Translations under genes and position numbers: made by a program
Notes under the pieces: generated by a model
Seen by the model: the letters and a program-made list of their open reading frames with translations, nothing else
Told to the model about the DNA's origin: nothing
Database searches by the model: none
In this document: piece after piece, positions 1,065-50,695 of the stretch
Layout: each line of letters starts with the position of its first letter
Numbering within the stretch: position 1 is the first letter of the stretch
Source: Corylus avellana
Taxonomy: Eukaryota; Streptophyta; Magnoliopsida; Fagales; Betulaceae
Direction of reading: 5' to 3'
Length of the DNA: 64,000 nucleotides
Assembly: GCF_901000735.1 (NCBI RefSeq)
Contig: NC_081545.1
Location: 17,492,758-17,556,757, forward strand

Positions 1065-1074
1065 ATGCTTAGTT

Positions 1075-1542: not shown

Positions 1543-1631
1543 TTTATTGCTCGATTCTGCTTCATCAGAGTGCTCGGATTGTTTATCCTCTTCAGAATTG
1601 TTATCGTGAAAACAATCTTGAAGTTTTAATA

Positions 1632-2144
1632 TTAAAAGTTGTTGTTTAAATCGTTATTATCCGTTTTAACGGAGTGCAAGTCATTTTTTAAATCAATGAT
1701 TTCTTTCTTGATATTACTAACCTCATGTTGCAAATCTGAGATAGTAATCTTTTTGGATTTTTGTTTAGAAAATCGTTCCAAAGTTTCATCAAGAGAGATT
1801 TTTGCATTGTTAGTTTTATTAGCATTTTTAATCATCGTATTCCTAAGTTTTTTAAGGTAATCTTCTTTTAATTTAGGATTTTCAATTCTTGAAATTAAAG
1901 TGATTATGAAATTTTCTTGTTCTTCAATTTTTGTTCAAGTTTTGACATTTTTGCAACAAAAATCATTACAACCAATTTTGAAATCATTGTTAGAGAATTC
2001 ACTAGCAGAATGGTAATCGGAGTCACTTGAGGTTGTTAAAAATTCACTGTCAGATGAATCAGAAGAATTAACGGATTGCAAAATTCTAAAAAGATTTTCT
2101 TTTCCGTTGTCATCAATTTTTAAAGCATTAATTTCTTTTTTCAA
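1632..2144 (-). pseudogene. caulimovirid polyprotein linker: acidic Ser-rich and coiled-coil parts
   Basis: Two short open stretches follow the zinc knuckle. Positions 2144-1935 encode an acidic, serine-rich segment (SSDSDSEF-like) ending in a small Cys-rich patch. Positions 1835-1632 encode a Lys/Asp/Asn-rich segment with heptad-like Leu/Ile spacing, likely coiled coil. They are in different frames with about 100 noncoding bases between them, so at least one frameshift separates them. The order (coat, knuckle, acidic, coiled coil, protease) supports assignment to one ancient polyprotein. No function can be assigned to each piece. Confidence 0.55.
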
Positions 2145-3107: not shown

Positions 3108-4383
3108 TCACAAATATCTACCTAATTTAATAGGCAAATAATTGTATGTTTTACCCGCAAGTGCACGAGGTCAACATAGTACTATAGGGTGCAAGTACGG
3201 GGTCATTCCCACGAGGATTGGTAAATTATGTTTAGAAGTAATTTCTTATTTAGATAAAACTTAATTGTCACAATTGAGTTAAAATAAATAAATAAAATAA
3301 AAGATAAACTAAAACTAAAAAAGATTAGGATTTTGATATCCACCACTAATCATACTAATTAAGATAACAATATGCCAATGCACCAATTATACCAGTATAA
3401 TTAATGTTTGCTAACCTAAGGGCATGGGTGTATAGTAAGTTGTTCTTTAAGAAAGCATAAATCTATGGAAATCGACAAACACATGAGGCCTAGGGCATGG
3501 GTGTATACTCCCGGTTCCCCATGTTGATTAACCCAAGAATCCAGCATGGATATCTTTTATTACTCTTATTAAACTTAGGACTCGGTCATCCAAATTGATT
3601 TAAGTAACTAGTCCATACTACATGCATATGTTGATCAGGCACACACATATGAGGAATACAAGATAACAGGAATTAATCAAGTTAAATACGCCAAAATATA
3701 ATTGTAGCAAATGCGCCAATATTGCAATCATAAATAGATATGATTAGGGCTTCAATCTAGTCCGAAATAAAATATAAACTACATAATAAAGATAAAAGGT
3801 GGAAGAGAAGAAAACCCAAACTCCTTTTGATCTAGCCTTTAGTTCCTTTCCAGAGCTTGTGTCTCTTTTCTCCACACTTATTCCTAGAGGCTAAGAGGTC
3901 TATTTATAGGCTTTAGAAGTCCTTGTTACATTAGTAAACCTAGGAAATTCGTAGGGTTTTACTCCTATTACAAGTGGGAGTTGGAAAACCCTAATATGGA
4001 AATACTAGCAGTCTGGCCGCACACTTGATGTGTCTCCTACACATGGGTGCGATCGATCGCGACCCGTGTGCTCTCGATCACACGAATGCGATTGAGCCTC
4101 TTTTGCTGTGCGCTTGATCGCATATGGCCGATTCCCTGCTTGTCCTCTCTAGTAGTGCGCTCGATCGCAGGGAATTTGCGATCGATCGCACTATTAGGGG
4201 CTCCAACTTTTCTCAATTTCTCTCTTTGAGCTCAAATCTTCCAGATTTACTTCATTTTCTTCCAAAAGCCTATAAAAGCATGGAAACACACAAAAAGGAA
4301 CTAAAATAACACCAATTAACAATATTAAGGAATTAACATACATAAGTTTAAGGGCTAAAATATCGATATTTTGGCACTTAACA
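3103..4383 (-). mobile_element. family-A LTR (A1), 3' LTR of a truncated element
   Basis: A 1281-bp LTR in minus orientation runs from TGTAGTCACAAATATC (3' end of the LTR) to GGCACTTAACA at 4383 (LTR start TGTTAAGTGCC). A TATA box (TATAAATAGACC on the minus strand) lies at about 3900-3910 and a cluster of GATCGA boxes at 4040-4190, upstream of it. In the hairpin array (about 3415-3530) a deletion has fused the 5' half of hairpin 2 with the 3' half of hairpin 4, leaving two copies of the loop motif. The polypurine tract adjoins the high-coordinate side, so this is a 3' LTR. It splits the CACTA remnant. Confidence 0.8.
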
Positions 4384-12482: not shown

Positions 12483-13902
12483 TGTTAAGTGCCAAATATT
12501 GCATATTGGGACTCCTTTATTTTCATTAGTTAATCCTTTAGCTGTGTCGTTATTTAATGTTTTGTTTTGGTTTTGTGTTTTTAGTATTTTATAGGTTATT
12601 GAAAAAAAACTACAGCTTTAAAGGGAAAAATGCAAAGTTTGGAAGAGAGCATAATTTGAGAAGACCTAGATGATGTGGTTAAGTTTAACCAAATCCAAGA
12701 AAAGGTTAAATCGGATTAAGGATTAGATTGTATTAAAGTTCAAATTGGATAAAATTTCGGATTGCATTCAAATTCAGATTCTGCAAACGTCTCAGTATTT
12801 TGACCATAACTTTCCTCTCAAAGATCGGATTGAGGTGATTCAAGTGGCATTGCAAAGCTAACTCAAAATACTTTAGTTCATTGTGAAGTAGGAGTTTCCT
12901 AATTCGGATGGTTACTATGCCAAAATTGCCCCGCAATTAAAGAACACAAATCTGGATGAATCCTATTCCGATTTCAGACTTCTATTTTGACTGGGAGACA
13001 GACCTCCAAATTATCTAGGTTTAATAGGGGTTCTAGGACTCCCCTAAGCCATCAATAGACTTCTTTGCATTCAGGAAAATATATACAATTCCAGAAACTA
13101 GTTTTGTGATACAATTTTGGAGACAGAATGTAATCCCCAGCTTTTCTTTTAGTTTAGTTTTTCTTTAGTTTATGTTTTATTTTTATGTAGAGCTAATTCC
13201 CAACTAAGGTTGAGGATGAAGCCTCACCGATGAAGAACATCAATACTTTCATATTAGTCTTTATTTATCTGATTTTATTGGGTTTAATAGTTCAATTGTT
13301 TTACTTCTTTTCAATGTGTGGAGTGATTCTTGGATATCTTTTGTGATTCAAGGATACACTTGATGATTTAAAATAATTTCACATAATTGATTGCTTGATT
13401 TTATTTGCCTAAATAATTGGATATCCCTTGTGATTTGTTCTACGAATACATTTAGTGTTTCAATTAAGATTGGATATCTTTTGTGATTTACGGATACATC
13501 TGATGACTTAATTGATATTGGATTCCTCTTGTGATTTGTGCAGTGAATGGATACATGGGATGGTTTTGATTTGTTTGAAGCATAGTAAAACATATCTAAG
13601 ATTTTAATTGTTAGAACTTTAGATTAATATTGATAAACATAGAAGTATGATGTTATGATTTGGTGAGTATGAATTCCCAAACCTTAATCTTTTATCTCTT
13701 AGTTTATTTTAATTAGTTTATGTTTGTCTCTTAATTTCAAAAATCAAAATTCAAAACTCTTTTGGAACTAGGTTAGGATTTAATTATATTAGATTTAAAT
13801 TGCTCTATAAAAAATACAATTCTCTGTGGGTTCGACCTCGCACTTTCAATCCATTAAACTACAATCGATTCATGCACTTGCGAGTTAAATAAATTTGCAC
13901 AA
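12483..13902 (+). mobile_element. B1 5' LTR (family B)
   Basis: A 1.42-kb LTR starts TGTTAAGTGCCAAATATTGC and ends AAATAAATTTGCAC, four bases short of the usual GCACAACA end. Its TATA box is destroyed: the 3' LTR reads CCTATAAATAGAC near 17605, but here the sequence is CCATCAATAGAC near 13050. Four units of GGATATC..TTGTGATT..GGATACA lie at about 13330-13560 in the leader part. B1 is old, judging from its divergence from its own 3' LTR. Confidence 0.85.
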
Positions 13903-17036: not shown

Positions 17037-18437
17037 TGATAAGTGCCAAATATTGCATATTGGGACCCCTTTATTTGCATTAGTTAATCCTTTGGCTATG
17101 TTGTTATTTAATGTTTTGTGTTAGTTTTGTATTTTTCGTATTTTGTAGGTCATTGAAGAAAAACTACAGCTTTAAAGGGAAAAATGAAAAGTTTGGAAGA
17201 GAGCATAATTTGAGAAGACCTAAATGATGTGGTTAAGTTTAACCAAATCTAAGAAAAGGTTAAATCGGATAAAGGATCAAATTGGATTAAAGTTCATATT
17301 GGATAAAATTTTGGATTGGATTCAAATTCAGATTCTGCAAATGTCTCAGTATTTTGACCATAACTTTCCACTCAAATATCGAATTGAAGTAATTTAAGTG
17401 GCATTGGAAAGCTAACTCAAAATAATACAGTTCATTGTGAAATAGAATTTTCCTAATTCCGACGGTTACTATGCCAAAATGGTCCCGTAATTAAAGGACA
17501 CAAATCTGGACGAATCCTATTTCGATTGCAGACTTCTATTTTGACTGGGAGACAGACCTCCGAATTATCTAGGTTTAATAGGGCTTCTAGGACTTTCCGA
17601 GGCCTATAAATAGACTTCTTTGCATTCAAGAAAAGATATTGAATCCTAGAGAGCAAAATTCTACAGTTTTTCTCTTTTTAGTTTAGGTTTTCTTTAGATT
17701 TATGTTTTATTTTTATGTAGAGATAAATTTCCAACTAAGATTGGGGATGAAGCCTTACCGATGAAGAACATCGATACTTTCATGTAAGTCTTTGTTTATC
17801 TGATTTTATTGGGTTTAATATTTCAATTGTTTACTTCATTTCAATCTGTGGAGTGATTCTTGGATATCTTTTGTGATTCAAGGATACACTTGATGGTTTA
17901 AGATAATTTCACATAATTGATTGCTTGATTTTATTTGCCTAAATAATTGGATATCCCTTGTGATTTGTTCTACGGATACATTTAGTGTTTCAATTAAGAT
18001 TTGATATCTTTCGTGATTTACGGATATATCTGATGATTTAATTGATAATGGATTCCTCTTGTGATTTGTGCAATGAATGGATACATGGGATTGTTTTGAT
18101 TAGTTGTTTGAAGCATAGTAAAACATATCTAAAATTTTAATTATGAGGACTTTAGATTAATATTGATAAACATAGAAGTATGATGTTATGATTCGGTGAG
18201 TGTGAATTTTCAAACCTTAGTCTTTTATCTCTTAGTTTATTTTAATTAGTTTATGTTTGTCTTTTAATTTCAAAAATCAAAATTTAAAACCCTTTTGGAA
18301 CTAGGTTAGGATTTAATTAGATTAGATTTAAATTGCTCTTTCAAAAATATAAGTCTCTGTGGGTTTGACCTCACACTTGCAATCCATTAAACTACAATCG
18401 ATTCATGCACTTGCGAGTTAAATAAATTTGCACAACA
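17037..18437 (+). mobile_element. B1 3' LTR (family B)
   Basis: Runs from TGATAAGTGCCAAATATTGC to TTTGCACAACA. The TATA box TATAAATAGAC is near 17605 and four GGATATC..GGATACA units lie at about 17855-18090. No 5-bp duplication matches the flank of the 5' LTR, and the sequence right after it repeats the LTR/PBS junction (next entry). Confidence 0.85.
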
Positions 18438-18470
18438 AGTTTTTAAGAAGTTTTTGGTGCCCCCTAGCAT
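18438..18470 (+). other. second partial PBS junction after the B1 3' LTR
   Basis: AGTTTTTAAG is followed by AAGTTTTTGGTGCC, which is the start of an internal region (LTR-to-PBS junction) and should not follow a 3' LTR. It ends abruptly at CCCTAGC. This fits a tandem LTR arrangement left by unequal recombination or a second truncated unit. Confidence 0.55.
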
Positions 18471-25107: not shown

Positions 25108-26191
25108 TGTTGTGCCAAATATTACCTAAATTAATAAATAATGTTTAATACGTTTTAACTCTCATGTGCACAAGATCAAAATAATAGTATAGTGCGGCAA
25201 GTACAAGATCGATCCCACGAGGATTGTTGATTTTGTTGTAGAATTTAATTAAAATATCAAACTTGTTACGAGATTGATATTATGAAAAAGGAAATAAAAG
25301 GATATAAAGATAAAGTAAAGGTAGGGCTTTGATATCCATCACTAATTATGCTCAACTAATATAACAATATGCCAATGATCCAATCATATTATGAATACTT
25401 AATGTTTGTCAACCTAAGGGCATGAGTGTATACTCCTTAAGCTATTGATTTTTCTAAGCAATGAGTTAGGGATGGGTGTATACTCTAACTCTTTTCTTTC
25501 TCAAAGGATTTATCATGGGTGTATACTAAGTTGTTCTTTAAGAAAGCATAAATCTATGAAAATCGACAAACACACGGAACCTAGGGCGGGTGTATACTCC
25601 CGGTTTTTCATGTTGATTAACCCAAGAATCCGGTATGGATTTATTTTGTTACTCTTATTAAACCCAGGACTCGGTTTAATAAGTAATCATATTAAGTCCT
25701 AGTCGAAATTGGAATAGGATTCATCCAGAATTGCGTTCTTATCTTGTAGGGTGATTTTAGCATAGCGGCGCTCCGAATTAGGAAAATGTTATTTCACAGA
25801 GATTTCTAGCATTTTGAGTTATCTTTCCAATGCCACTTGAATCATCTCACTCGAATATTTGAGCCGAAAGTTATGGTCAAAATACCAAGACATGTGCATA
25901 ATCCAATTTTGAATCCAATCCGATTTTGACTCTAATTTGAGAAATTATGATTTAATCCTTTCTTTTATTTGATTAAACTTAACCATGATTGGCTAAGCTC
26001 AACCATATCTTCTAGGTCTTCCCAATTTTCCTTGTAAGCTTGGAACTTTTCTGAAAACGCTTTCATTTATCCCAAAAACCTATAAAACAAAGAAAATACA
26101 AAAAGAAAGTAAAATAGCACAAACTAACAATACTAAGGAATTAACACATATAAGTTTAAGGGCTAAAATATGAATATTTTGGCACTTAATA
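25108..26191 (-). mobile_element. mosaic A/B LTR (A2), 3' LTR of element A7
   Basis: From 25108 to about 25690 the sequence is family A and includes all four loop-motif copies of the hairpin array (25405-25625). From about 25690 to 26030 it matches the family-B U3 (GGAATAGGATTCATCC, GTTATGGTCAAAATACC). From about 26040 to 26191 it returns to the family-A U3 start. The recombination removed the family-A TATA box, transcription start and GATCGA cluster; I see no replacement TATA box. The LTR starts TATTAAGTGCC next to the polypurine tract. Confidence 0.75.
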
Positions 26192-26736
26192 CACCCCCAG
26201 ACTTACATATTGCTAGTCCCTTAGCAGTATGAAACTAAAAACAAAATGGAAAAATTAAAAACAAAAAGGTAAATCCATCTTTTGTGGGATGTACGATTGC
26301 ATTTAGTATATGCAACAAGCCTTTTAAACCCCTAGGAATTTCCTAGAGGACGAGTGAAGTCTCATGAGGGTTTTCTAGGAATGTTACTCACAAACATTAT
26401 GCAAGAGTCCATGTTATCCAAAAATTAAGGTATTACTCAAAACCATGATTTTGATTCATTAGCAAGCTTAAAAAGATGAACTCCATCTTCACAATGAACT
26501 GGAATCTCAAAGTTCCATTACTTACAAAGGACATGCTAAAACATCACAAGTTTGAAAATAGTGTAAAGTGAACTAGCACAAAATTATGAAGCTTCCAAGT
26601 ATTTCCAATGTGCAATGTCTTCATATCTCAAAGTTCATTGAAATCCCTATTAGAATGAACAATGATGGCATATTTTTCTCTCTTTTTTTTATTTTTTTTG
26701 GTCAGGTTGTGTAATGTTTGGTTCCCTTAAGCTTTC
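26192..26736 (-). other. A7 3' noncoding region, LTR-proximal part
   Basis: Polypurine tract AAGTCTGGGGGTG at the LTR edge followed (in increasing coordinates) by the shared noncoding region, including the poly-T/A run near 26684-26700. It is interrupted at 26737 by solo LTR A3 and continues at 28080. Confidence 0.65.
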
Positions 26737-28074
26737 TATTAAGTGCTAAAATATTCATATTTTTAGCCCTTAACTTACATGCGTTAATCCTTTACTTTTG
26801 TTTAATTTATGTCATTTTAGTTCTTTTATGTGTTTTCTTGTTTTTATAGGTCCTTAGAAAAAAAATAAGCAATCTCAGAAGTTTTGGACTCAAAACAGCT
26901 ATTTTGGGAAAATTGGAGGCTCTGGTAGTGCGTTCGATCGTAGAGGAGCTGCGATCGAGCGCATTACAGGCAAAGACAATGAAGCATAAGGCACTTGTGA
27001 TCGAGCGTCCAGCACAACAGGATCGATCGCAGTCCTGCAATCGATCGCACACGGGCTGCGATCGAGTGCACCCGTGTGTGATGAGCAAGTCAACCGCCAG
27101 CCTTGATATGGAAAGTGCAATTTCTAGGGTTTTGTAACTTTGTACAAACTAGGGCTCAAACCCTATGATTTTTTAGGTTTCTAGAGTATTCCTAAGGCTT
27201 ATAAATGGACCCTTAAACCTCTAGAATAGACACAATTCCCAATGAGAAGAATTGGAGCTCTTCTAGTTCAAGTTTTGGGCTTATTCCTTTCATTTCTTTT
27301 TATTTTATGAAGATGTTTAACATCAAACTTATGTGTAACTAATTTATTTAGTAGGGCTAGATTGAAGCCCTACTTATGTTTTGTTAATATTCAATATTGG
27401 CGCATTTGTGATGATCATGTTGTGATATTTAACTTGATTAATTCCTGCTTTCATGAATTCCTCATATGTGTGTTCCTTATCAACATATGCATGTGGTATG
27501 GACTAGTTAGTTAAATCAATTTGGATGACCGAGTTCTGGGTTTAATAAAAGTAACAAAAGATATCCACATCGGATTCTTCAGTTAATCAACATGGGGAAC
27601 CAGGAGTATACACCCATGCCCTCGGCCTCATGTGTTTGTCGATTTTCACAGAATTATGCTTTCTTAACGAACAACTTAGTATACACCATGCTAAATCCTT
27701 TAAGAAAGAAAAGAGTTAGAGTATACACTCATGCCTAACTCGTTGTTTAGGGAAATCAATAGCTTAAGGAGTATACACCCGTGCCCTTAGGTTGACAAAC
27801 ATTAGATATACATAACATGATCAAAACATTGGCATATTGTTATATTATCGAAATATAATTAGTGGTGGATATCAAAGCCCTACCTTTTTATTATTATCAA
27901 ATCAAAAATCAATCTTTGTTTTGTTTTACTTAAGGAATTTATTTTAAGCAAAATAGCAATCGTCGTGGGAATGACCCCGTACTTGCATCATTTACTACTA
28001 TGTTGACCTTGTGCACTTGCGGGTAAAACATACAATTATTTGCCTATTAATTTAGGTACATATTTGTAACAACA
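26737..28074 (+). mobile_element. solo LTR A3 (family A), TSD CTTTC
   Basis: A complete 1338-bp LTR, TATTAAGTGC to GTAACAACA, is flanked by the 5-bp duplication CTTTC (26732-26736 and 28075-28079). It has the GATCGA-box cluster (about 26925-27080), TATA box TATAAATGGACC (27200) and the hairpin array (27590-27800). The flanking sequence rejoins exactly into the shared 3' region (AAGCTTTCTAATTGA), proving insertion followed by LTR-LTR recombination. The 5' terminus is TA instead of TG. Confidence 0.9.
27590..27800 (+). promoter_or_regulatory. family-A hairpin array in transcribed LTR (A3 copy)
   Basis: Four copies of AGTATACACCCATGC-like sequence lie at 27605, 27678, 27720 and 27770. Each is enclosed by a different inverted repeat: CATGGGG with CCTCATG-type, CTTTCTTAA(A)G with CTTTAAGAAAG plus TTAG with CTAA, GAGTTAG with CTAACTC, and CTTAAGG with CCTTAGG. 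The array lies about 400-600 bp after the TATA box, so it would be in the 5' leader of the RNA. Folding is inferred from base complementarity only. Confidence 0.6.
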
Positions 28075-28299
28075 CTTTCTAATTGATCCATGTAACGAGT
28101 GTTAAGTCAATGACTCCCAAACCAGATGGTTTTAGGCCATTAGGTGCAGAGACACCCCTAGGACTTACTAACTCGAGTCAAAAAGGTTACGAAACCAAAC
28201 TAATCATGACATCAATCAAATCAATCACCTTTTGACGTGAACACTCAATACTTTGAGGCAAGAGGTTCAGTTACTCAGTGAAAAGCTTATCAATGATTA

Positions 28300-29125: not shown

Positions 29126-30419
29126 ATTAGGGAGGACCACTTTGAGTTTTCTTAAACAGTTTCTCATCCGGTGGGGAATCATGAACTGGAATAAAGTAGG
29201 AAGAATAGTAAGGGAGCTTCTCCATCTTGATGTCCTCAATTTGCTCATGTGGTAGCTCTAACAGACTTCTCTCCTGGCCTCTTGGTGTTTTTTGAATAAG
29301 AGCTAATGTTGAAAAAAATTTAGTGCTCTCTTCTTTTTCTTGATGTGGCTCCTATGGAACCTCGGTTTGCTCCTCCTTTCCCTTTTCCACTTGATTTTCA
29401 ACCACCTCTTCATTCCTCAATGAGTCAGCTTGCTCATGATAGTAGGTGCACTCTTCCTCCATGTAGTGCTCATTAGGATTGGTCACCAATTGATTTTGGC
29501 GCTCTTCTTCTTCTTCTTTAAGTATGTCTAATATTTGCTTGAGGTGAGCCTCCATCCTTTCAAATGATTGCATGCGAGAGTTCTCCATCCTTTTAAGTGA
29601 TCGATTTCTTTCCTTCATTTGGCTAAGAAAAGCTAATATTATTTCTTCTAAGCTGGCATGCGCTTCTTCTAAGGCAGACCTTTTTGGAGGAGATGGTTCT
29701 TCTTTGTATTGTTGAGGCCAATCGATTGGAGATAGCCCCTCGTCATGATAATGTTGAGACCAATTGATGGGAGATGGCTCCTCTTCATGAGCTTCTATCT
29801 TGAAAATGGATTGCTGCAAACTGGGGTTAAGACAAGAATAGGAGTGATCATAGAACTGTGGAGATGGCTCTTCTTCATGATAGCTGATACTCTCTTCCTT
29901 AATATAGTGTCCATGAGGAGTGGTAACTGACTGACTTTGGCGCTCTTCCTTTTTGAGAAAATTTGTTCATTGTGTACAATGGGCCTCCGTCCTTTCAACT
30001 GATTTCAAATGAGAGTTCCTCATCTCCTTAATTGCTGAACTGATCAGAGCTAATGTATCTTCAGAAAACTCAAGAGGAGGTGGTTTAGCTTGATATTGCT
30101 GTTGTGGAGCTGATTGAGAGGAATATGCATGATCATAGAATTGCTGATATGAGTGATGTTGTAGTCCATGAGATTGTGGAGGATGAATTTTGGGAGCTTG
30201 GACTTGCCATGAGAGATTGGACTGTTGGCTGCATGATGGGTTGTAGGAATCAAAATAGCGGTCATACCCCAATCTAGAGAAAGATGTGTTCATGTGCCCA
30301 TAAAATTTGTTAGAAGTTTGTCTCATTGTAGGACATTCTCTAAGATGGTGAGAAGGGTCATGGCAACATGAACATGGTCTACGGGGTGTCGGAATGCTAC
30401 CCCACATGTGTGAAAACAA
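29126..30419 (-). pseudogene. A7 Gag-derived ORF
   Basis: The frame read down from 30419 begins MFSHMWGSIPTP and encodes a CCHC knuckle CSCCHDPSHHLREC at about residue 17. A Gln/Tyr/Ser/Pro-rich linker follows, then a Glu-rich coiled coil and an acidic tail ending DEKLFKKTQSGPP. One frame is kept throughout, broken by a TGA near 29967 and a TAG near 29352. A module (ERQxQxV-TxPxxHY-xxEE) occurs twice, around 29930-29890 and 29505-29455, so this copy has an internal duplication absent from A6. No capsid domain and no pol are present. By family this is the RNA-binding C-terminal part of Gag. Confidence 0.7.
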
Positions 30420-30758
30420 AAATAGTAAAAGGTTAAAATAAAAACAAAATTAAAAATAAAACTTACAAAGATGCAGACTCAATCGACCCTGCATGAAAAG
30501 AAAAGAAAAAAAAATCAGATCTATAATTAGTGCAGTAGCTGTGCTGCTTTCTAGATGTGCGATTGATCGCATTGTGAGGTGCACTCGATTGCACTGGTGC
30601 GCTCGATCGTCCTGGTTGGGCGCTCGAGCGCACCTCTAGAGGCAAAACAGGAACTGCGGAAAAAACTAGAAAAACAGAAAAATTTAAAACAAAAATAAAT
30701 TAAAAGAAAAAAAATTCCAAACAAAATCAAACAATCCCTGGCAACGGCGCCAAAAACT
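30420..30758 (-). other. A7 leader with GATCGA cluster and PBS
   Basis: The primer-binding site is at 30735-30752; read on the minus strand it is TGGCGCCGTTGCCAGGGA, one mismatch from tRNA-Asp. The leader contains, at 30555-30640, words such as GTGCGCTCGAGCGCCC and GTGCGATTGATCGCA forming a GC-rich patch in otherwise AT-rich DNA. Confidence 0.75.
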
Positions 30759-31287
30759 TGTTGTGCCAAATATTACCTAAATCAATAGATAATATTTAGT
30801 ACGTTTTAACTCGCAAGTACACAAAATCAAAATAATAGTATAGTGCAGCAAGTACGAGATCAATCCCACAAGGATTGTTGATTTTGCTGTAGAATTTAAT
30901 CAAAATATCAAACTTGTCACGAGATTGATATTATGAAAGAGGAAATAAAAAGATATAAAGATAAAGTAAAGGTAGGGCTTTGATATCCACCACTAATTAT
31001 GCTCAACTAATATAGCAATATGCCAATGATCCAATCATATTATGAATACCTAATGTTTGCCAACCTAAGGGCATGGATGTATACTCCTTAAGCTATTGAT
31101 TTTCCTAAGCAACGAGTTAGGTATGGGTGTATACTCTAACTCTTTTCTTTCTCAAAGGATTTAGCATGGGTGTATACTAAGTTGTTCTTTAAGAAAGCAT
31201 AAATCTATGAAAATCGACAAACATATGGAACCTAGGGCATGGGTGTATGCTCCCGGTTTTCCATGTTGATTAACCCAAGAATCCGAT
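30759..31287 (-). mobile_element. A7 5' LTR, truncated by an inverted junction
   Basis: Starts next to the PBS as TGTTGTGCCAAATATTACC and carries the complete hairpin array (31060-31280), but the U3 and TATA box are missing. At 31287/31288 it is joined to plus-oriented 3'-region sequence of another family-A element. Confidence 0.75.
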
Positions 31288-31584: not shown

Positions 31585-32856
31585 GTTAAGTGCCAAAATA
31601 TTCATATTTTAGCCTTTAACTTACATGTTTTAATCCTTTAGTTTTGGTTAATTTATGCCATTTAAGTTCTTTTATATGTTTTCGTTGTTTTTGTAGGTCC
31701 TCAGAAGAAAAGGAAGCAATCTTAGAAGCTTCGGACTTAAGGAGCAATTTTGAAGAATATTGGAGGCTCTGGTAGTGCGATCGATCGCAGGGGAGCTGCG
31801 ATCGAGCGCACTACAGGCAAAGACCACGAAGCGCAAGGCACCCGCGATCGCGCACCTGTGCGTGATGAGCAAGTTAGTCGCCAGCCTTGATATGGAAAGT
31901 GCAATTTCTAGGGTTTTGTAACTTAAGCAAACTAGGGCTCAAACCCTACAATTTTTAGGGTTTCTAGAGTATTCCTAAGGCTTATAAATAGACCCTTAAA
32001 CCTCTAGAACAGACAATATTTCCAAGGAAAAGAATTGGAGCTCTTCAAGTTCAAGTTTCGGGATTATTCTTTTCCGTTCTTTTTATTTTATGAAGATGTT
32101 TAACATCACACTTATGTGTAACTAATTTACTTAGTAGGGCTACGTTGAAGCCTTAGTTATGTTTAGCTAATATTTAATATTGGCACCTTTGTGATGATCA
32201 TTTTGTGATGTTTAACTTGATTAATTCCTGCTTTCATGAATTCCTCATATGTGTGTGCCTGATCAACATATGCATGTGGTATGGACTAGTTAGTTAAATC
32301 AATTTGGATGACCAATTCCTAGGTTTAATAAAAGTAACAAAAGAAATCCACACCGGATTCTTGGGTTAATCAACATGGGGAACCAGGAGTATACACCCAT
32401 GCCCTAGGCCTCATGTGTTTGTCAATTTCTACAGAATTATGCTTTCTTAAAGAACAACTTAGTATACACCCATGCTAAATCCTTTAAGAAAGAAAAGAGT
32501 TAAAGTATACACCCATGCCTAACTCATTGCTTAGGGAAATCTATAGCTTAAGGAGTATACACTCATGCCCTTAGGTTGTCAAGCATTAGATATACATAAC
32601 ATGAGCAAAATATTAGCATATTATTATATTATCTAAATATAATTAGTGGTGGATATTAAAGCCCTACCTTTTTATTATTATCAACTCAATTTCAATCATT
32701 GTTTTATTTTACTTAAGGAATTTATTTTAAGCAAAATTTAGCAATTCTCGGGGAATGACACCGTACTTGCATCATATACTACTATGTTAACCTTGTGCAC
32801 TTGCGGGTAAAATGTACAATTATTTGCCTATTAATTTAGGTAGATATTTGAACAAT
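31585..32856 (+). mobile_element. family-A LTR (A9)
   Basis: LTR from TGTTAAGTGCCAAAATATTC, with a compact GATCGA cluster (31775-31860), TATA box TATAAATAGACCC (31983) and a full hairpin array (32370-32580). Hairpin 2 here has a perfect 11-bp outer stem, CTTTCTTAAAG with CTTTAAGAAAG. The last bases (TTTGAACAATAGACAACAG) are disrupted where it meets the D3 3' region. Confidence 0.8.
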
Positions 32857-32999: not shown

Positions 33000-34338
33000 T
33001 GTTGTGCAAATTTATTTAACTCGCAAGTGCACGAATCGATTGTAGTTTACTGGATTGCAAGTGCGAGGTCGATCCCACAGAGAATTGTATTTTTGAGAGA
33101 GCAATTTATATCTAAACTAATTAAATCCTAATCTAGTTCCAAAAGGGTTTTGATTTTTGAGTTTTGAAAATTAAAGGATAAACATAAACTAAATAAAATA
33201 AGTAAATCTAAGAATAAAGGTACTAAGGTTTGGGAATTCACACTCACCAAATCATAACAACATACTTTATGTTCATCAATATTAATCCGAAGTTCTCACA
33301 AATTAAATCATAGATATGTTTTACTATGCTTCAAAGAATTAATCAAAACCATCCCATGTATCCATTCATTGACCAAATCACAAAAGGAATCCAAATTCAA
33401 TTGAAACACCAGATGTATCCGTAGAACAAATCACAAGGGATATCCAATTTTTATGAGTTAAAAGCCAAGCAATCAATCATATGAAATTATCTCAAATCAT
33501 CAAATGTATCCTTGAATCACAAGAGATATCCAAGAATCACTCCATACAATTGATTAGAAGTAAAACAATTGAAATATAAAACCCAATAAAATCAGAATAA
33601 TAAAAACTTACATAAAAGTATTGATGTTCTTCATCGGTGAGGCTTCATCCCCAACCTTAGTTGGGAATTTAGCTCCACATAAAAATAAAATCTAAACCTA
33701 AACCTAAACCTAAAGAAAAACTAAACAAAAGAATTTTGCTCTCTGGGATTGTGTATATTTTGTTGAATGCAAAGAAGTCTATTTATAAGCTTAGGGAAGT
33801 CCTAGAAGCCCAAGTAAACTTAGATAATTCGGAGGTCTGTCTCCCAGTCAAAATAGAAGTCTGAAATCGGAATAGGATTCGTCCAGATTTGTGTCCTTTA
33901 ATTGTGGGGCCATTTTGACATAGTAACTGTACGAATTACGAAAATCCTATTTCACAACAAATTGTAGTATTTTGAGCTAGCTTTCCAATGCCGTTTGAAT
34001 CACTTCAATCCGATATTTGAACGGAGAGTTATGGTCAAAATACTAAGATATGTGCAGAATCTGAATTTGAATCCGATCCAAAATCTTATTCAATCTGAAC
34101 TTGAATCTGATTTAACCTTTTCTTGGATTTGGTTAGACTTAACCACACAATCTAGGTCTTCTCAAAGTATGCTTTCTTCCAAACTTCGCATTTTTCCCTT
34201 TAAAGCTGCAGTTTTTCTTCAATGACCTACAAAACACTAAAAACACAAAACTAACACAAAATATTAAATAACGACACAGCTAAAGGATTAACTAATGTAA
34301 ATAAAGGGGTCCAAATATGCAATATTTGGCACTTATCA
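33000..34338 (-). mobile_element. B2 3' LTR
   Basis: 1339 bp, TGATAAGTGCC to GCACAACA on the minus strand. TATA box TTATAAATAGAC near 33780-33790, an imperfect telomere-like (TTTAGG) triplet near 33692-33716, and three GGATATC/GGATTCC..TTGTGATT..GGATACA units at about 33330-33550. Confidence 0.9.
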
Positions 34339-36995: not shown

Positions 36996-37446
36996 GCTTC
37001 CCCTCACTTTTTAGCATGCAGATATCCCACATAAAACATTAACCAATATATATATTTTATTTTATTTTAATTTTTTTTTTAAATAAAATAAACTAAAATA
37101 ACAACTAACACAACAAAAAAAAAATGAAAACTAAAATTCAAAAACTCACAAAAAGGACCAAAAATAAATTTTTGGCAAAGATCTACGGAACTGCTGCTTT
37201 TGCTATGAGTGCGCTTGATCGCGCTGATGTGCGGAAGGTGCTGCGGCAGAACTGTAAAACAAGCCAAACAAAACAAAAAACAACAAGAACAATCTTTTTT
37301 TTTTTTTTTTTATTAGTAACACGAATAAAACAAAACAAATTGCAGAAAAATAAAATCCTAATTATAACTAGTAGAAGAATAAAACTAATTTAGAAATAAA
37401 TTGGTTTCAAAAATTGAACAATTCCCCGGCAACGGCGCCAAAAACT
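36996..37446 (-). other. B2 leader and tRNA-Asp PBS
   Basis: The primer-binding site at 37423-37440 is an exact TGGCGCCGTTGCCGGGGA on the minus strand. The leader is A/T-rich with homopolymer runs; a weak GCGATCAAGCGCACTC word remains at about 37210. Confidence 0.85.
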
Positions 37447-38783
37447 TGTTGTGCAAATTTATTTAACTCGCAAGTGCACGAATCGATTGTAGTTTAATGG
37501 ATTGCAAGTGCGAGGTCGATCCCACAGAGAATTGTATTTTTGAAAGAGCAATTTATATCTAAACTAATTAAATCCTAATCTAGTTCCAAAAGGGTTTTGA
37601 TTTTTGAGTTTTGAAAATTAAAGGATAAACATAAACTAAATAAAATAAGTAAATCTAAGGATAAAGGTACTAAGGTTTGGGAATTCACACTCACCAAATC
37701 ATAACAACATACTTTATGTTCATCAATATTAATCCGAAGTTCTCACAAATTAAATCATAGATATGTTTTACTATACTTCAAAGAATTAATCAAAACCATC
37801 CCATGTATCCATTCATTGACCAAATCACAAAAGGAATCCAAATTAAATTGAAACACCAGATGTATCCGTAGAACAAATCACAAGGGATATCCAATTTTTA
37901 TGAGTTAAAAGCCAAGCAATCAATCATATGAAATTATCTCAAATCATCAAATGTATCCTTGAATCACAAGAGATATCCAAGAATCACTCCATACAATTGA
38001 TTAGAAGTAAAACAATTGAAATATAAAACCCAATAAAATCAGAATAATAAAAACTTACATAAAAGTATTGATGTTCTTCATCGGTGAGGCTTCATCCCCA
38101 ACCTTAGTTGGGAATTTAGCTCCACATAAAAATAAAATCTAAACCTAAACCTAAACCTAAAGAAAAACTAAACAAAAGAATTTTGCTCTCTGGGATTGTG
38201 TATATTTTCTTGAATGCAAAGAAGTCTATTTATAAGCTTAGGGAAGTCCTAGAAGCCCAAGTAAACCTAGATAATTCGGAGGTCTGTCTCCCAGTCAAAA
38301 TAGAAGTCTGAAATCGGAATAGGATTCGTCCAGATTTGTGTCCTTTAATTGCGGGGCGATTTTGACATAGTAACTGTACGAATTACGAAAATCCTATTTT
38401 AATAAATTGTAGTATTTTGAGCTAGCTTTCCAATGCCGTTTGAATCACTTCAATCCGATATTTGAACGGAGAGTTATGGTCAAAATACTAAGATATGTGC
38501 AGAATCTGAATTTGAATCCGATCCAAAATCTTTTTCAATCTGAACTTGAATCTGATTTAACCTTTTCTTGGATTTGGTTAGACTTAACCACACAATCTAA
38601 GTCTTCTCAAAGTATGCTTTCTTCCAAACTTCACATTTTTCCCTTTAAAGCTGCAGTTTTTCTTCAATGACCTACAAAACACTAAAAACACAAAACTAAC
38701 ACAAAATATTAAATAACGACACAGCTAAAGGATTAACTAGTGTAAATAAAGGGGTCCAAATATGCAATATTTGGCACTTATCA
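37447..38783 (-). mobile_element. B2 5' LTR
   Basis: 1337 bp, same organisation as the 3' LTR, with TATA box near 38225-38236 and hairpin-type units at 37780-37990. It ends at the right target duplication CATGA (38784-38788). Confidence 0.9.
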
Positions 38784-40565: not shown

Positions 40566-41861
40566 TATTAAGTTCTAAAATATTCATATTTTTAGCTCTT
40601 AACTTACATGTATTAATCCTTTAATTTTGGTTAATTCATGCCATTTTAGTTCCTTTATGTGTTTTCCTTGTTTTTGTAGGTTTTCTAAAGAAAATGAAGT
40701 AAATCTAGAAGATTTGGGCTCAAAGAAAGAAAATGGGAAAAGTTGGAGCCTCTGACAATGCGATCCATCGCAAGCTCCCTACGATCAAGCGCACTACCAG
40801 AGAAGACAAAGCATGAGGCGACCATGTGCGATCGAGTGCACAACAGAAGAGGTTCGATCGCAGATGTGCGATCGAGCGCACATGGGTTACGATCAAGTGC
40901 ACCCGTGCGCAGGAGAATTCTAGAAGTTACAAACAGACTCCCTTTCCTTCCATATTAGGGTTTTCCAATTCCCACTTATAATAGGAATAAAAGCCTACGA
41001 ATTTCCTAGGTTTATTACTGTAACAAGGACTTCTAAAGCCCTATAAATAGACCTCTAAACCTTGACAATTAGGGGGAGACAACTTTAGGGAGAGGAACTG
41101 GAGGCTACTTCTAGGTGCGGTTTTCGGTTCTTTATTTACCTTTTCTCTTAATTATGTGTAACTAACTCTTAAGGAGGGCTAGATTGAAGCCCTAATTATG
41201 TTTATTTAATATTTCAATATTGGCACCTTTGTGATAATCATATTGTGTTGCTTAACTTGATTAATTCCTGTTTTCTTGAATTCCTCATATGTATGTGACT
41301 GGCCCAATTAAATCAATTTAGATGACCGAGTCCTGGGTTTAATAAGAGTAACAAAAGAAATTCAGACCAGATTCTTGGGCTAATCAACATGGAAAACCGG
41401 GAGTATACACCCATGCCCTATGTTCCGTGTGTTTGCCGATTTCCATAGATTTATGCTTTCTTAAAGAACAACTTAATATACACCCATGCTAAATCCTTTG
41501 AGAAAAAAAAAAAGAGTTAGGGAAATCAATAGCTTAAGGAGTATACACCCATGCCCTTAGGTTGACAAACATTAGGTATTCATAATATGATTGGATCATT
41601 TGCATATTGTTATATTAGTTGAGCATAATTAGTGGTGGATATCAAAGCCCTACCTTTACTTTATCTTTATATATTTTTATTTCTTTTTCATAATATCAAT
41701 TTCGTGACAACTTGATATTTTTAATCAATTCTAAACAAAATCAACAATCTTCGAGGGATCGATCTCGTACTTGCTGCATTATACTATCGTTTGATCTTGT
41801 GCACTTGCGAGTAAAACGTACTAAATATTATCTATTAATTTAGGTAGTATTTAGCACAACA
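40566..41861 (+). mobile_element. solo LTR A4 (family A), TSD GTAAG
   Basis: 1296 bp, TATTAAGTTC to GCACAACA, flanked by GTAAG (40561-40565, 41862-41866). GATCGA cluster at 40757-40915, TATA box TATAAATAGACC at 41042, loop-motif copies for hairpins 1, 2 and 4 at about 41401, 41474 and 41538; hairpin 3 was deleted between TTAG repeats. The target rejoins into the D4 3' region (CTCGTAAGCCAAGG). Confidence 0.9.
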
Positions 41862-43913: not shown

Positions 43914-45175
43914 TGTTGTGCAAATACCCACTTAAATTAATAGGCAAATATTTGGTACGTTTTACTAACAAATGCACAAGTTCAAAACGATAGTATAACA
44001 GGCAAATACGAGACCATTCCCACGAGGATTGGTAAATTATACTTAGAATTGATTTCCTATTTAATAACAGATTGTCACGAATAGAATTGAAATAAAGGAT
44101 AGACTAAGACTAACAAGGATTAGGGTTTTGATATCTACCACTAATCAGACTAATTAAGATAACAATACGCCAATATTCCAATCATATGGTATATTCAATG
44201 CTTGTCAACCTAAGGGCATGGTATCTACTCATTTAAGTTGTAGATCTCTATAAGCATTGAATTAGGCATAGTATCTACTCTAATTCTTTTCTTCCCTAAA
44301 GAATTTAGCATGGTACCTACTAAGTTGTTATTTACGGAAGCATAAATCTATGGAAATCAACAAACACATGAAGCCCCGCATGGTATCTACTCCTAGTTTC
44401 CCTTGTTGATTAAGCCAAGAACCTGTAATGAGGTTCTTTTGTCACTTTATTAAGTCCAAGACTCGGGTATCTAAATTTACTTAATTAACAAATCCATACC
44501 ATATGCATATGAGGAATTCAATAAACCAGAAACTAATCGATTAAAATACCAAAATATGTTTGAAACAAAGATGTAATTGAAATCCCAAGAAGACTCATTA
44601 GGGCTTCAATCTAGCCCTAACTAAAATATAAACTACATAACAAAATAAAAGATGGAAGAGAAGAAAAACCCAAACTTTTCTTGATCTAGCCTTCAGTTCC
44701 TTTCCAAAGCTTGTGACTTTTTCTCCAGACTTTTTCCTAGAGGCTTAACGGTCTATTTATAAGCTTATGAAAGACCAAGAAACCCTAGAAACCCTAATGG
44801 AATCATAGGTTAGTCTACTAAGCCAACTAGTAGATTGGAAACCTAAACTGAGGTGGAAAAGGACACTTTCGCATATGGGCCACGTGAGTGTGCTCGATCG
44901 CACGAGTCTGCTTGATATGTGATCGAGCGCTAGTGCGCTTGATCCTAGCTGTGTTGTACTCCAGCCTAGATTGGCTGCGATCGATCCGATGGCTTCCAAC
45001 TTTTTCCCAATTTGTCTTTTAAGTCTGAAACTTGCCAGAAACACTTGCTATTCTTCAAAAACCCTAAAAATATAAGAAAACACAGAAAGGAAGCAAAACA
45101 TCAAATAATAACAAAACTAAGAGCTTAAAATATGTATATTAAGAGGCTAAAATATGTATAGTTTAGCACTTATCA
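43914..45175 (-). mobile_element. family-A LTR (A8), divergent subfamily
   Basis: 1262 bp, TGATAAGTGCT to TTTGCACAACA on the minus strand. It has a TATA box near 44752-44762 and a GATCGA cluster near 44880-44990. In the hairpin array (44200-44410) all four loops are of the AGTAGATACCATGC form rather than AGTATACACCCATGC. The adjacent polypurine side is at 45176, so it is a 3' LTR. Confidence 0.8.
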
Positions 45176-46403: not shown

Positions 46404-47823
46404 TGTGCTAAAATATTCATATTTTAGCCCCGTAATTTACACTTGTTAATTTCTTAATTTTATTATTTTGTGCTATTTTATTTCCTTTTTTTGTTTTCTA
46501 TGTTTTTGTAGGTCATGGAAGAAAAGGAAGCAATTTAGGAAAGTCGAGCATAATGGGCAATTTGGAAAAAAAGCTAGAAGTTTGGGATCAAGGTCAAGCA
46601 TCCCAGCGCAGTGCGATCAAGCACACTACACCTAGGCTCGAGCGCACCAAAGCTCGAGCACCCAAGCCAAGGAGCGAGCGTAGGCTTGTGCTCGCACACA
46701 CAAGAAGCTGGCTCAAGCATTTCAACGCTCGAGCGCTCAACACCAGAGATCGATCACAGGTGTGCCATCGAGCGCACCAACCCTACTATCGAGCAAACTC
46801 ATGCGCTGGAGAAAAATAAAGACACACGGCCAGACTCCTCCCCAAATTAGGTTTTCCTAATCCATTTTGGACTAGGAAAGTTAGACCTCCGATTTTACTA
46901 GGTTCACTAGGGTTTCTAGGGTTTTCCTAAGCTTATAAATAGACCTCTAAGTCTCACAAATTCCACATACAATTCCAGAGACAATTTTCAGGGAGGAGAA
47001 TTTGGAGGCTACTTCCAGGAGTTGTTTTCGATTTTTTCTTTTCCCTTTATTTTTAATTATGTGTAACTAACTCTTTAGTTAGGGGCTAGATTGAAGCTCT
47101 AATCATGTCTTTTTAGAATTTCAATATTGGCGCCTTTGCTACAATCATATTTTGATATATTTAAATTGATTATTTCTTGCTTGATTGAATTCCTCATATG
47201 AATGTGCCTAATCAACATATGCATGTGGTATGGATTAGTTATTTAAGTCAATTTGAATGACCGAGTCGTGGGCTTAATAGAGTGACAAGGAATCTCGTCA
47301 ATGGGGTTCTTAGATTAATCAACATGGAGAACCGGGAGTAGACATCCATGCCCTAGGCTCCATGTGTTTGTTGATTTTCACAAATATATGCTTTCTTAAA
47401 GAACAACTTAGTAGACACAGATGCTAAATCCTTTGAGAAAGAAAAGAATTAGAGTAGACACCCATGCCTAATTCGTTGCTTAGGGAGATCCATAGCTTAA
47501 GGAGTATACACCCATGCATTTAGGTTGGCAAACATTATATACACCGGTATGATTGGCACATTGGCATATTGTTATCTTAATTAGTCTAATTAGTGGTGGA
47601 TATTCAATCCCGAATGCTTCTATTAATCTTTATCTCTTTTCATAATATCAATTTCGTGACAATTTTGATAGTTAATTTAGAAAATCAATTCTAAGCAAAA
47701 TCAACAATCCTCGTGGGAATGATCTCGTATTTGCTGCACTATACTATCGTTTGATCATGGGCACTTGCGAGTTAAAACATACCAAATATTCGCCCATTAA
47801 TTTAGGTAGTATTTGGCACAAGA
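46404..47823 (+). mobile_element. A6 5' LTR (family A, long U3 variant)
   Basis: About 1.42 kb starting TGTGCTAAAATATTC (the TTAAG of other copies is missing) and ending GGCACAAGA. The U3 has a long GC-rich cluster (46605-46805) rich in GCTCGAGCGC and GATCGATC words, then TATA box TATAAATAGACC (46934). Three of four loops in the hairpin array (47320-47530) are TAGACA type, the fourth is TATACA. Confidence 0.75.
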
Positions 47824-47829
47824 AGTTTT

Positions 47830-47847
47830 TGGCGCCGTTGCCCGGGA
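47830..47847 (+). other. A6 primer-binding site (tRNA-Asp)
   Basis: TGGCGCCGTTGCCCGGGA differs at one base from the tRNA-Asp complement. Confidence 0.85.
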
Positions 47848-48190
47848 TTGATTAATTTTGTTTGGAATTTTTTTCCCTTAGTTTATTTTTCTTTTTAATT
47901 TAGTTTTCTGTTTTCTGGTTTTCGCAACTTCTTTGTTGTCTACGGAGGTGCGCTAGAGCACCCATCTAGGGTGATCGACCGCACTAGTGAGATTGAGTGC
48001 ACTAGCCAGTGCAATCGATTGCACATCCGGACAGCAGCACAAAAACTATTTTAATTACGGATCTGATTTTTTTCTTTCCATGCAGGGTCATTCAAGTCTG
48101 CGTGCATGTAAGTTTTTATTTTTAATTTTGATTTTATTTTCCTTTTGATCTTAACTTCTTTCTGTAATTTTATTATTTTTGTTTTCACTC
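47848..48190 (+). other. A6 leader with GATCGA cluster
   Basis: Noncoding leader. Positions 47945-48030 hold GTGCGCTAGAGCACCC, GATCGACCGCAC and GTGCAATCGATTGCAC words, matching the leaders of A5 and A7. Confidence 0.6.
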
Positions 48191-49169
48191 ATGCGGGGAG
48201 CCATTCCGACACCCTATGGACTATGTTCATATTGCCATAATCTTTTTCATCATGTTAGAGATTGTCCTTCAAAAAAGACAATTTTTTGATTATTCTTATG
48301 GGCATATGAACACATCGTTCTCTATACCGGAGAACGACAGCTATCCTGATTCCTATAACCTATCATGGAGCCAACAATCTAATCTCTCGTGGCAAGCTCA
48401 AGCTCCTGGAAATCATGCTCTACCATTTCATGAACTACACCAGCAATCATATCCGCAACTTTATGGTCAATCATATTCATGTCTTAGCCTCAGTCTACTG
48501 TTGCAATCCATTTTCAAGATAGAAGCTCATGAAGAGGAACCACCCCCCATCGATTGGCCTCAACAATACCAAGAAGAACGACCTCCTCTTGAGATTTATG
48601 AAAATTTGTTAGCTATGATCAGATTGGCGACCAATAATACACTGCAAGCAATTGAGTGGATGGCCCACCTCAACCAAAGAGCCGGTACCCTCAAAGAAGA
48701 AGAAGAGTGTCAAAGTCAGTCGGTGGCAAATCCTAATGAATACTACATGGAGGATTAGTGCACTTATTATCATGAGCAAGCTATCACCACATTGAGGAGT
48801 GAAGAAGTGGTTGAAGATCAAGTGGATGCGCCTGGAGTTGAGCAGAAGGAGGAGCAAATTAAGGTCCTACAAGAACCACATCAGGAAAAAGAAGAGAGCA
48901 TTGAGTCTTCTTCAACATCAGCTCTTATACTCGAAGTACCAAAAGGCCAGGAGAGTAGTCTATTAGGGATATCAAATGAGCAAATTGAGGACATCAAGAT
49001 AGATAAACTCCCTAAGTATTCTCCTCATATTATTCCAGTTCATGATTACCTTCTGGATGAGAAACTGTTTGAGAAGACTCATAGTGGTCCACCCCGATCT
49101 ACAAACAATTGGAATTACCTTTCTGTAGGTAAAATTCACTCCCTTTGGTCCAAGAGAAGAAAAGACTAG
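48191..49169 (+). pseudogene. A6 Gag-derived ORF
   Basis: Starts MRGAIPTPYGL with knuckle CSYCHNLFHHVRDC, shifts frame near 48290, then continues GHMNTSFSIPENDSYPDSY through a Gln/Tyr/Pro linker, a coiled coil and an acidic tail with EQIEDIKIDKLP, ending 49169. There is a TAG at 48756-48758. It matches the A7 ORF without the internal duplication. No capsid, protease or RT. Confidence 0.7.
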
Positions 49170-49406
49170 TGCTTCAAGTTTAAACTTAAGGGTCAGAAAG
49201 CACTAAGTGCTTCATGGATGAGGATTCTATTGGCTTGGCGGATCCCATATATTTTGACTAAATGAATCAGCTTTATAGGTTCAAGATAGGCCCTATGCAC
49301 TTGAGTCCTTCATCAGGTCAGGGTCCATGATCTCTATCCAGGTTTATCCTCTCCATTGTTGTTCCATGTTCATTCTTTGGTTATATTTTTTACAGCAATG
49401 TGTTGC
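49170..49406 (+). other. A6 sequence between ORF and A5 insertion
   Basis: The post-ORF motif expected here is only partly recognisable (AAGCACTAAGTGCTTCATGG). The rest matches no other copy in the window. Ends with GTTGC, the left duplication of A5. Confidence 0.4.
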
Positions 49407-50695
49407 TATTAAGTGCTAAAATATTCATATTTTTAGCCCTTAACTTACATGTGTTAATCCTTTAGTTTTAGTTAATATATGCCATTTTAGCTCTATTATG
49501 TGTTTTCCTTGTTTTTGTAGGTCATTGGAAGAAAAAGAAGCAATCTCTGAAGTTTCGGACTTAAAAGAGCTATTTCGAGAATATTGGAGGCTCTTGTACG
49601 GTGATCAATTGTAGGGGAGTTGCCATCGAGCGCACTACAGCCGAAGATCACTAGCGCAAGGGACCTGCAACCGAGCACCCAGCACAACAGGATCGATCGC
49701 AGGATTGATCGCACATGGGCTGCGATCTAGTGCACATGTGTGTGATGGGCAAGTCAGCCACTAGCCTTGATATGGAAAGTGCAATTTCTAGGGTTTTGTA
49801 ACTTAGTGGGAACTAGGGCTCAAACCTTATAATTTTTAGGGTTTCTAGAGTATTCCTAAGGCCTATAAATAGACCCTTAAACCTCTAAAATAGACACACA
49901 AATTCCAAGGAGAAGAATTGGAGCTCTTCAAGTTCAAGTATCGGGTTTATTCTTTTCCTTTCTTTCTTTTTATTTTATGAAGATGTTTAACATCAAACTT
50001 ATGTGTAACTAATTTATTTAGTAGGGCTAGATTGAAGCCCTAGTTATGTTTAGTTAATATTCAATATTGGTGCCTTTGTGATGATCATGTTGTGATATTT
50101 AACTTGATTAATTCTTGCTTTCATGAATTCCTCATATGTGTGTGCCTGATCAACATATGCATGTGGTATAGACTAGTTAGTTAAATCAATTTGGATGACC
50201 GAGTTCTGCGTTTAACAAAAGTAACAAAAGAAATCCACACTGGGTTCTTGGGTTAATCAACATGGAGAACCGGGAGTAGACACCCATGTCCTAGGCCTCA
50301 TTTGTTTGTCGATTTCCACACAATTATGCTTTCTTAAAGAACAACTTAGTAGACACCCATGCTAAATCCTTTAAGAAAGAAAAGAATTAGAGTAGCATCC
50401 ATGCCCTTAGGTTGACAAACATTAGATATACATAACATGATCAAAGCATTGGCATATTGATATATTATCTGAATATAATTAGTGGTGGATATCAAAGCCC
50501 TACCTTTTTACCATTATCAAATCAAAATTCAATCTTGTTTTATTTTACTTTTGGAATTTATTTTAAGCAAAATTTAGCAATCTTCTTGAGAATGACCCCA
50601 TACTTGCACCCTATACTAGTATGTTGAGCTCGTGCATTTGCGGGTAAAATATACAATTATTTGCCTATTAATTTAGGTAGATATTTGTAACAACA
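49407..50695 (+). mobile_element. A5 5' LTR
   Basis: Starts TATTAAGTGC and ends GTAACAACA; GATCGA cluster near 49590-49735, TATA box TATAAATAGACCC (49864). In the array (50255-50420) a deletion joined hairpin 3 to hairpin 4, leaving three loops of the TAGACACCC type or its remnant. Confidence 0.85.

Follow-up and report, generated by a model that had tools for sequence, protein, structure and literature searches.

The window, a stretch of 64 kb of plant DNA, contains nested LTR retrotransposons. One family of these, family A, has LTRs of about 1.3 kb, and three of its insertions are flanked by 5-bp target-site duplications (CTTTC, GTAAG and GTTGC, read by eye). The solo LTR at 26737-28074 (+), delimited by self-comparison and by reading of the flanks, carries the array described below and is bracketed by direct repeats of CTTTC at 26732-26736 and 28075-28079. 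Its sequence contains a TATA box (TATAAAT, 27200-27206, +) and AATAAA, a candidate poly(A) signal (27544-27549, +). A primer binding site, TGGCGCCGTTGCC, is located just 3' of the LTR ends at 47821 and 30759. We take it to be the complement of tRNA-Asp, and the primer binding site of family-A elements is presumably of the Athila type. Judged from sequence features, the carrier of the array is an Athila-like Ty3/gypsy LTR retrotransposon. Scans for tRNAs and Rfam families gave no match in the 64-kb window, and no family of Rfam 15 reached its gathering score there.

Frames of family A are present at 29352-30449 (-), 48168-48758 (+) and 51554-52141 (+). One kind resembles the nucleocapsid end of Gag; the other is acidic and contains SLEDPL repeats. 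A CX2CX4HX4C knuckle was identified in the nucleocapsid-like frame at 29352-30449 (-). Neither kind of frame had a match in Pfam, and both recur in the elements fetched from the genome.

Between the TATA box and the primer binding site, that is, in the putative leader, family-A LTRs carry an array of four hairpins (H1 to H4) with a shared loop. In the solo LTR the array spans 27591-27800, about 390-590 nt 3' of the TATA box at 27200. H1 (27591-27632, +) presents the loop as an exact match at 27605-27619; H2 (27659-27708, +) has a loop of 14 nt here, one base short (27678-27691); the loops of H3 (27713-27741, +) at 27720-27734 and of H4 (27761-27793, +) at 27770-27784 each show one mismatch. 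Two possible long-range helices were noted. The arms of P0 are GTTTGTC (27634-27640, +) and GACAAAC (27794-27800, +), and those of P1 are GATTTTC (27641-27647, +) and GGAAATC (27751-27757, +). The initial annotation had described one loop sequence in four separate hairpins of this LTR, and all four were recovered, at 27605, 27678, 27720 and 27770; with up to two mismatches allowed, the loop pattern has 32 matches in the window versus a mean of 0.06 in 100 shuffles. If AATAAA at 27544-27549 acts as the poly(A) signal, the array would sit at the start of U5, and such a position, with transcription probably starting 5' of the array, is what we infer. In a scan of 90 loci for upstream motifs, H1 was found in 86, which form the denominator of the following counts. 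TATAAA occurs 330-440 nt 5' of H1 in 68 of them, and in 53 AATAAA or AATAAG precedes H1 by at most 90 nt. The primer binding site (up to three differences) lies behind the array in 20, the other 66 being counted together, whether solo, 3' or cut copies.

An array in 11 LTR copies of the window had been proposed. All 11 copies were found, but only eight hold all four hairpins, and hairpins have been lost in the other three. On the forward strand, complete arrays are located at 32374-32584 (LTR 31584 to about 32853; loops at 32388, 32461, 32504 and 32554), at 47323-47533 in a 5' LTR ending at about 47819, behind which the primer binding site lies at 47830-47842, at 54515-54725 in the 3' LTR 53685-55000, with four G-type loops, and at 61586-61796 in an LTR ending at about 62085, with loops of types G, G, G and T. 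On the reverse strand they are located at 25404-25612 (LTR piece 25675-25106), at 31055-31265 (LTR piece 31303-30759, then a primer binding site) and at 44200-44405. The reduced arrays are those at 41388-41570 (+), in a solo LTR from 40566 to about 41860, where H3 is deleted; at 50261-50416 (+), in an LTR from about 49405 to 50695, where H3 and H4 are fused by a deletion between loops; and at 3406-3523 (-), which is cut down to H1 and a hybrid of H2 and H4. Seven of the eight complete arrays have the 15-nt loop AGTAKACACYCATGC (K = T or G), and the eighth, the 44-kb copy, shows a 14-nt variant, of the AGTAGATACCATGC kind, in each of its four hairpins; its H1 stem is decayed and the H1 pairing largely broken. 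Across copies the loop is not constant: there are T, G and 14-nt types, and one subfamily in the genome has divergent loops.

The structure used for counting was modelled on the 27-kb copy. All helices are present in the fold of that copy itself, which is therefore not independent. A helix was scored as present in a minimum free energy (MFE) fold from three quarters of its pairs. In the MFE folds of the 11 window copies, H1 was present in 6, the outer stem of H2 in 8, H3 in 8, H4 in 8, P0 in 4 and P1 in 5 (at least 6 of its 7 pairs). The loop tips often fold on themselves in these MFE folds, with a bulged A and the pairs G-C, U·G and A-U. The tip comprises the bulged A (missing from H2), a short helix of G-U-A and the loop ACACYC, for which loop position 5 and the almost invariant A12 form the closing pair. 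RNAalifold, applied to the window set, returned H1, H2 and H3, but put a longer P0 in the place of P1 and H4, and its covariation term was slightly unfavourable. In the 32- and 47-kb copies, H1 is replaced by pairing between a CATGGG-type sequence and the CCCATG or CCATG within the loop.

The perfect 11-bp stem reported for H2 was verified at 32442-32452/32482-32492. The stems had also been said to share no sequence, which is true for the most part but too strong, since TTAG..CTAA forms the end of both the inner H2 stem and the H3 stem. When arms were swapped between hairpins in eight copies (22-nt arms), every 3' arm preferred the 5' arm of the same hairpin, although H4 offered a 5' arm that paired equally well with the 3' arm of H1 (-8.3 in both cases), and with 10-nt arms the cross-pairs H4/H1 (-5.7) and H2/H4 (-6.3) rivaled the own pairs.

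The loop pattern AGTAKACACYCATGC occurs 5588 times in the 370-Mb host genome (12 contigs), compared with once for its reversed control. Searches with the exact loop AGTATACACCCATGC gave 2834 matches, and those with the stem of H4 around any insert of 11-17 nt gave 1759; the reversed loop and the control for the stem gave 0 each. Viral and GTDB genome collections gave no match to the loop-stem or the two-loop pattern. An alignment of 68 arrays, A3, was built from the 8 of 11 window arrays in which no hairpin is lost, and from 60 of 70 fetched loci. The ten loci left out of A3 (L025, L030, L033, L037, L038, L042, L057, L058, L060 and L076) had a changed number of hairpins, a missing or odd start, or were near copies; L039 was trimmed. 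H4 is uninformative in the 60 fetched loci, because its stem served as the search pattern. A second sample consists of 20 hand-picked loci with at least two loop matches among the matches listed, which were found by the loops alone; it contains the near copies L089/L092, L091/L093 and L097/L098. All fetched loci are on contig C1, among the matches listed.

The array is conserved. Between LTR subfamilies its identity is mostly 0.84-0.94, versus 0.65-0.77 for the remaining LTR; the identity of the array in the 44-kb copy is only 0.71-0.82. Whole hairpins have been gained or lost by exchange at the shared loops, as in the deletions at 3406-3523 and 50261-50416 and in L037 and L038, and in the duplication in L025 which produced five hairpins. 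In L042 and L076, an unrelated-looking stretch is found in place of the sequence 5' of H2, and the array begins at H2.

Pairing is kept in 92.7% of 703 cells in the 11 window copies and likewise in 92.7% of 4810 cells in the 68 arrays, where slid structures reach 28-52%. In the window copies, double-changed cells numbered 14, compared with 6.7 after shuffling (2 of 500 shuffles), and double-changed pairs (5 versus 3.8) and pair types (29 versus 31.4) were not raised. The 68 arrays had 96 double-changed cells, compared with 42.2 (sd 5.6) after shuffling (0 of 500), and a covariation score of 0.142 versus 0.121 (0 of 500). Neither the double-changed pairs (15 versus 12.6, 77 of 500) nor the pair types (74 versus 73.0, 189 of 500) exceeded the shuffles in this set, so that the search for covariation supports the hairpins by two measures but not by the other two. 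The clearest compensations are in pairs 19:50 and 20:49 of H1 (GC in 37 and AU in 22 arrays, with double changes in 22 of 68; GC in 44 and AU in 12, with double changes in 12 of 68), 89:134 of H2 (UA in 54 and CG in 11 of 68) and 148:173, the third pair of H3 (AU in 38 and GC in 27 of 68). In the 20 arrays found by their loops, 0.90-0.98 of the cells of each helix are paired, versus 0.39-0.51 when the structure is slid by one or two columns; in H4, 214 of 239 cells are paired.

The two long-range helices, P0 (GTTTGTC/GACAAAC) and P1 (GATTTYC/GGAAATC), may gather H2 to H4, which is stated tentatively. In the 68 arrays, P0 is paired in 96.6% of cells with zero double changes, and P1 in 91.4% with few double changes, in three pairs. 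The best pair of P1, 69:203, is CG in 33, UG in 11 and UA in 5 arrays and unpaired in 19, and tree comparisons gave 3.1 versus 1.8.

Folding is stronger on the sense strand than on the antisense strand, which points to RNA. On the sense strand, eight of the 11 window copies fold below all of 200 shuffles (z -3.0 to -5.8). The antisense strands of the same eight gave z of +0.2 to -2.3. No copy of the 11 was below all shuffles on the antisense strand, and three copies were weakly significant there (z -2.0 to -2.3, 5-6 of 200 shuffles). Sense folding was not significant in the 44-kb copy (z -0.79) or in the two copies with large deletions. In some LTRs, windows in the U3 fold equally strongly (z to -4.7); strong folding alone is therefore not special to the array. 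In 547 stem cells, G·U was counted 56 times versus 15 for A·C, a gap that is smaller by pair, where 18 of 56 pairs have any G·U state and 14 any A·C state. With the compensatory changes in the 68 arrays, the sense-strand folding of eight of the 11 copies, the 20 arrays found by their loops and the joint loop changes reported below, the multi-copy RNA recognition signal proposed in the initial annotation gains support.

The four loops change in concert. Position 5 of the loops reads TTTT in 23 of the 68 arrays and GGGG in 22; 12 arrays mix T and G, and 11 have other letters or gaps. Concordance at this position within arrays is 0.83, versus 0.45 expected (largest of 2000 shuffles 0.54), and in the 20 further arrays 0.97 versus 0.52 (largest shuffle 0.69). 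Among 217 full-length loops, position 5 is G in 107, T in 105 and A in 5, and stands opposite A12 as U-A in 103 and as G·A in 106. In a phi2 scan of the array with up to 500 nt upstream and up to 300 nt downstream, in which 59 of the 68 arrays could be labelled with a loop type, the four loop positions reached 0.75-0.87 and the two columns of the H3 pair 148:173 reached 0.81 and 0.76. The next column had 0.47, which is also the maximum of the 599 flank columns (2 at 0.3 or above), and the non-loop columns of the array other than the H3 pair stay at or below 0.21. Also in the second set the third pair of H3 is A-T in 8 of 8 G-type arrays and G-C in 9 of 12 T-type arrays. Loop position 5 and one base pair of H3 thus change together repeatedly, and the columns between them do not follow. 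This concerted change across four loops and one H3 base pair is the new observation of this study. An exchange of the whole array as one block was considered and rejected as the source of the joint loop changes, since the stem columns of H1 and H2 around loops 1 and 2 ignore the loop type.

The loop positions underwent 12-17 changes on a tree built from the LTR sequence that flanks the array. Independent comparisons on the tree were concordant for loop pairs in 5.9-6.5 cases, versus 0-1.0 opposite, with a median sign-test p of 0.03 for four loop pairs among those listed; the best base pairs gave similar values (4.0-7.0 versus 0). Linkage was also seen at column pairs which are neither base-paired nor in loops: column 78 with 89 and 134 (r2 0.64-0.65), 19 and 50 with 133 (0.45-0.46) and 76 with 235 (1.00). 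Several of 20 hand-picked control comparisons on the tree reached 4-5 versus 0-1. Shared ancestry as a source of linkage is not fully removed. A third loop type, of 14 nt and of the GATACCATGC kind, occupies all four hairpins of the 44-kb copy. In one subfamily (L011, L055, L066 and L072) the stems are kept and the loops are divergent; the rule of concerted loops can therefore be lost.

Elements with and without gag-like sequence have the array in common. The sequence downstream was inspected for 15 of the 20 arrays with a primer binding site (L021, L023, L057, L076 and L092 were omitted). Four of these 15 LTRs lead into gag-like sequence (L099, L102, L106 and L107), nine into an element with a nucleocapsid-like fragment without a match to the gag piece, eight of the nine having the acidic frame too, and two into neither. 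One of the four gag matches, L099 (from L013), is itself the source of the gag query; its gag piece had no Pfam match. L107 matches both the gag piece and the acidic frame, and L106 has Retrotrans_gag (PF03732, E 5.3e-17) plus a weak protease match. Six further pieces of 701 bases gave no match.

In our interpretation, the array would form an RNA domain of about 210 nt that acts in cis and belongs to the 5' leader of an Athila-like Ty3/gypsy element. The four hairpins would present the same tip, the closing pair being U-A in T-type and G·A in G-type arrays, and the two weaker long-range helices might bring H2, H3 and H4 together in a single branched unit. All four tips would be read simultaneously by one trans-acting factor; a change in one loop would then pay only if the other three follow. 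The factor would most likely be Gag, which through its nucleocapsid part would select the genomic RNA for the particle. A single multivalent protein reader and a function in packaging are conclusions drawn from the pattern, and a multivalent recognition element in the leader, most likely read by Gag for packaging, is the reading we prefer, with a confidence just short of even. Elements without gag should retain what they need in cis, so that packaging, priming or export fit better than control of the translation of the element's own gag. In addition, the two loop alleles, closed by U-A and by G·A, could be recognition classes read by two versions of one factor. A switch of class would then change all four loops and the H3 pair together and would set which helper mobilises the element. 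This extension is speculative, and we consider it rather doubtful.

The main rival reading is nuclear export, for which some retroviruses have response elements in their LTR or leader. A Rev-like or host export factor might accordingly read the array, with several identical sites in the transcribed LTR, and let unspliced RNA leave the nucleus; Cer1 of C. elegans is reported to require a protein for the export of its genomic RNA (PMC10309623). Retention of the array in gag-less elements suits export and packaging alike, and we judge export to be unlikely. The palindrome GUAUAC in the T-type loops suggests that the loops of two RNAs could kiss in a dimer linkage, and Ty3 RNA has been reported to dimerise by short 5' palindromes (PMC11381356). 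On the sequence of the loops, however, a kissing-loop dimer fits the T type only, as the G-type GUAGAC, present in 107 of 217 full-length loops, is not self-complementary, and dimer linkage is accordingly improbable. About equally improbable is a control of translation by short upstream frames, by which every loop would present an AUG. ATG is indeed present in 63, 67, 57 and 49 of 68 loops 1 to 4, and the frames have 2 codons in 56 of 63 first loops, 16 codons in 50 of 67 second loops and 19 codons in 43 of 57 third loops. However, the ATG is missing from loop 4 in 19 of 68 arrays and from loop 3 in 11 of 68, and the frame lengths result from the conserved stems.

The loops might also be under no selection at all, if the array is an old tandem repeat in which template switching from loop to loop during reverse transcription keeps the loops alike. 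The deletions located at loops (3406-3523, 50261-50416, L037 and L038) and the five-hairpin duplication of L025 are in line with such switching, and the 12 of 68 arrays which mix T and G loops could be its intermediates. Conversion within a 15-nt loop leaves the compensatory stem changes unexplained, however, as it does the H3 base pair which changes with the loop type, and little probability is given to this account. A transcription or chromatin factor which binds the inverted repeats and the core as DNA would agree with the place of the array among the most conserved parts of the LTR, but neither the stronger folding of the sense strand nor the excess of G·U (56) over A·C (15) is expected of a DNA site, which makes this very improbable. 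Finally, all four loops could be driven to change jointly if host small RNAs match the shared loop and the element escapes from them, and centromeric ATHILA elements are reported to yield small RNAs in an Arabidopsis mutant (PMC10418216). The original likeness of the loops and the retention of the stems would remain unexplained, and we regard such an escape as the least probable of the explanations considered.

The preferred reading, recognition of the array by Gag for packaging, has parallels in known systems. In the packaging regions of alpha- and gammaretroviruses, more than one leader hairpin carries a GACG tetraloop. These tetraloops are reported to play a part in the packaging of RNA and possibly to assist dimerisation (PMC516450). 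The loop shared there has 4 nt, whereas here a 15-nt tip is borne by four hairpins, lies in the LTR and changes in concert. Several stem-loops with a common loop motif are also described for hepatitis B virus, satellite tobacco necrosis virus and others (PMC6281560, PMC7612645). Such dispersed packaging signals are short motifs found genome-wide, whereas the four sites here are clustered and nearly identical; for STNV-1, the dispersed signals are reported to be without discernible significance for packaging in vivo (PMC6475782). In plants, BARE2 is reported to make no Gag of its own, to be packaged and to have conserved dimerisation and packaging signals (PMC3735527). BARE1/BARE2 and RLG_Cereba/RLG_Quinta are described as partner elements which share cis sequences (PMC3735527, PMC11302176). 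The available excerpts of these descriptions mention neither a hairpin array nor a four-hairpin loop type, and RLG_Quinta is said there to contribute GAG (PMC11302176), unlike most elements here. Among the matches listed in the literature, as far as their excerpts extend, such an array in Athila-like elements was not found.

As a candidate recognition element the array is compact, and a single genome supplies thousands of natural variants of it. If a multivalent RNA-protein code exists, the joint change of four loops would be its trace in the genome, and such a code could explain how gag-less elements stay tied to their helpers, or switch them.

A second LTR family, B, is located at 12483-13902, 17037-18444, 33000-34338 (-) and 37440-38783 (-). 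At a similar place its LTRs contain 3-4 units of GGATATCYYTTGTGATT..GGATACAT. This repeat was considered as a second case and rejected, as its folding is no better than that of shuffles (z -0.8 to -1.4, 4 copies). In the solo family-A LTR, positions 26930-27090 of the U3 are full of CGATCGATCGCA-like palindromes, and LTR windows covering that part fold strongly too. The frames at 555-1653 (-) include a match to aspartyl protease (PF00077) and a stretch that resembles reverse transcriptase but has no match in Pfam; they are presumably a fragment of an endogenous pararetrovirus.
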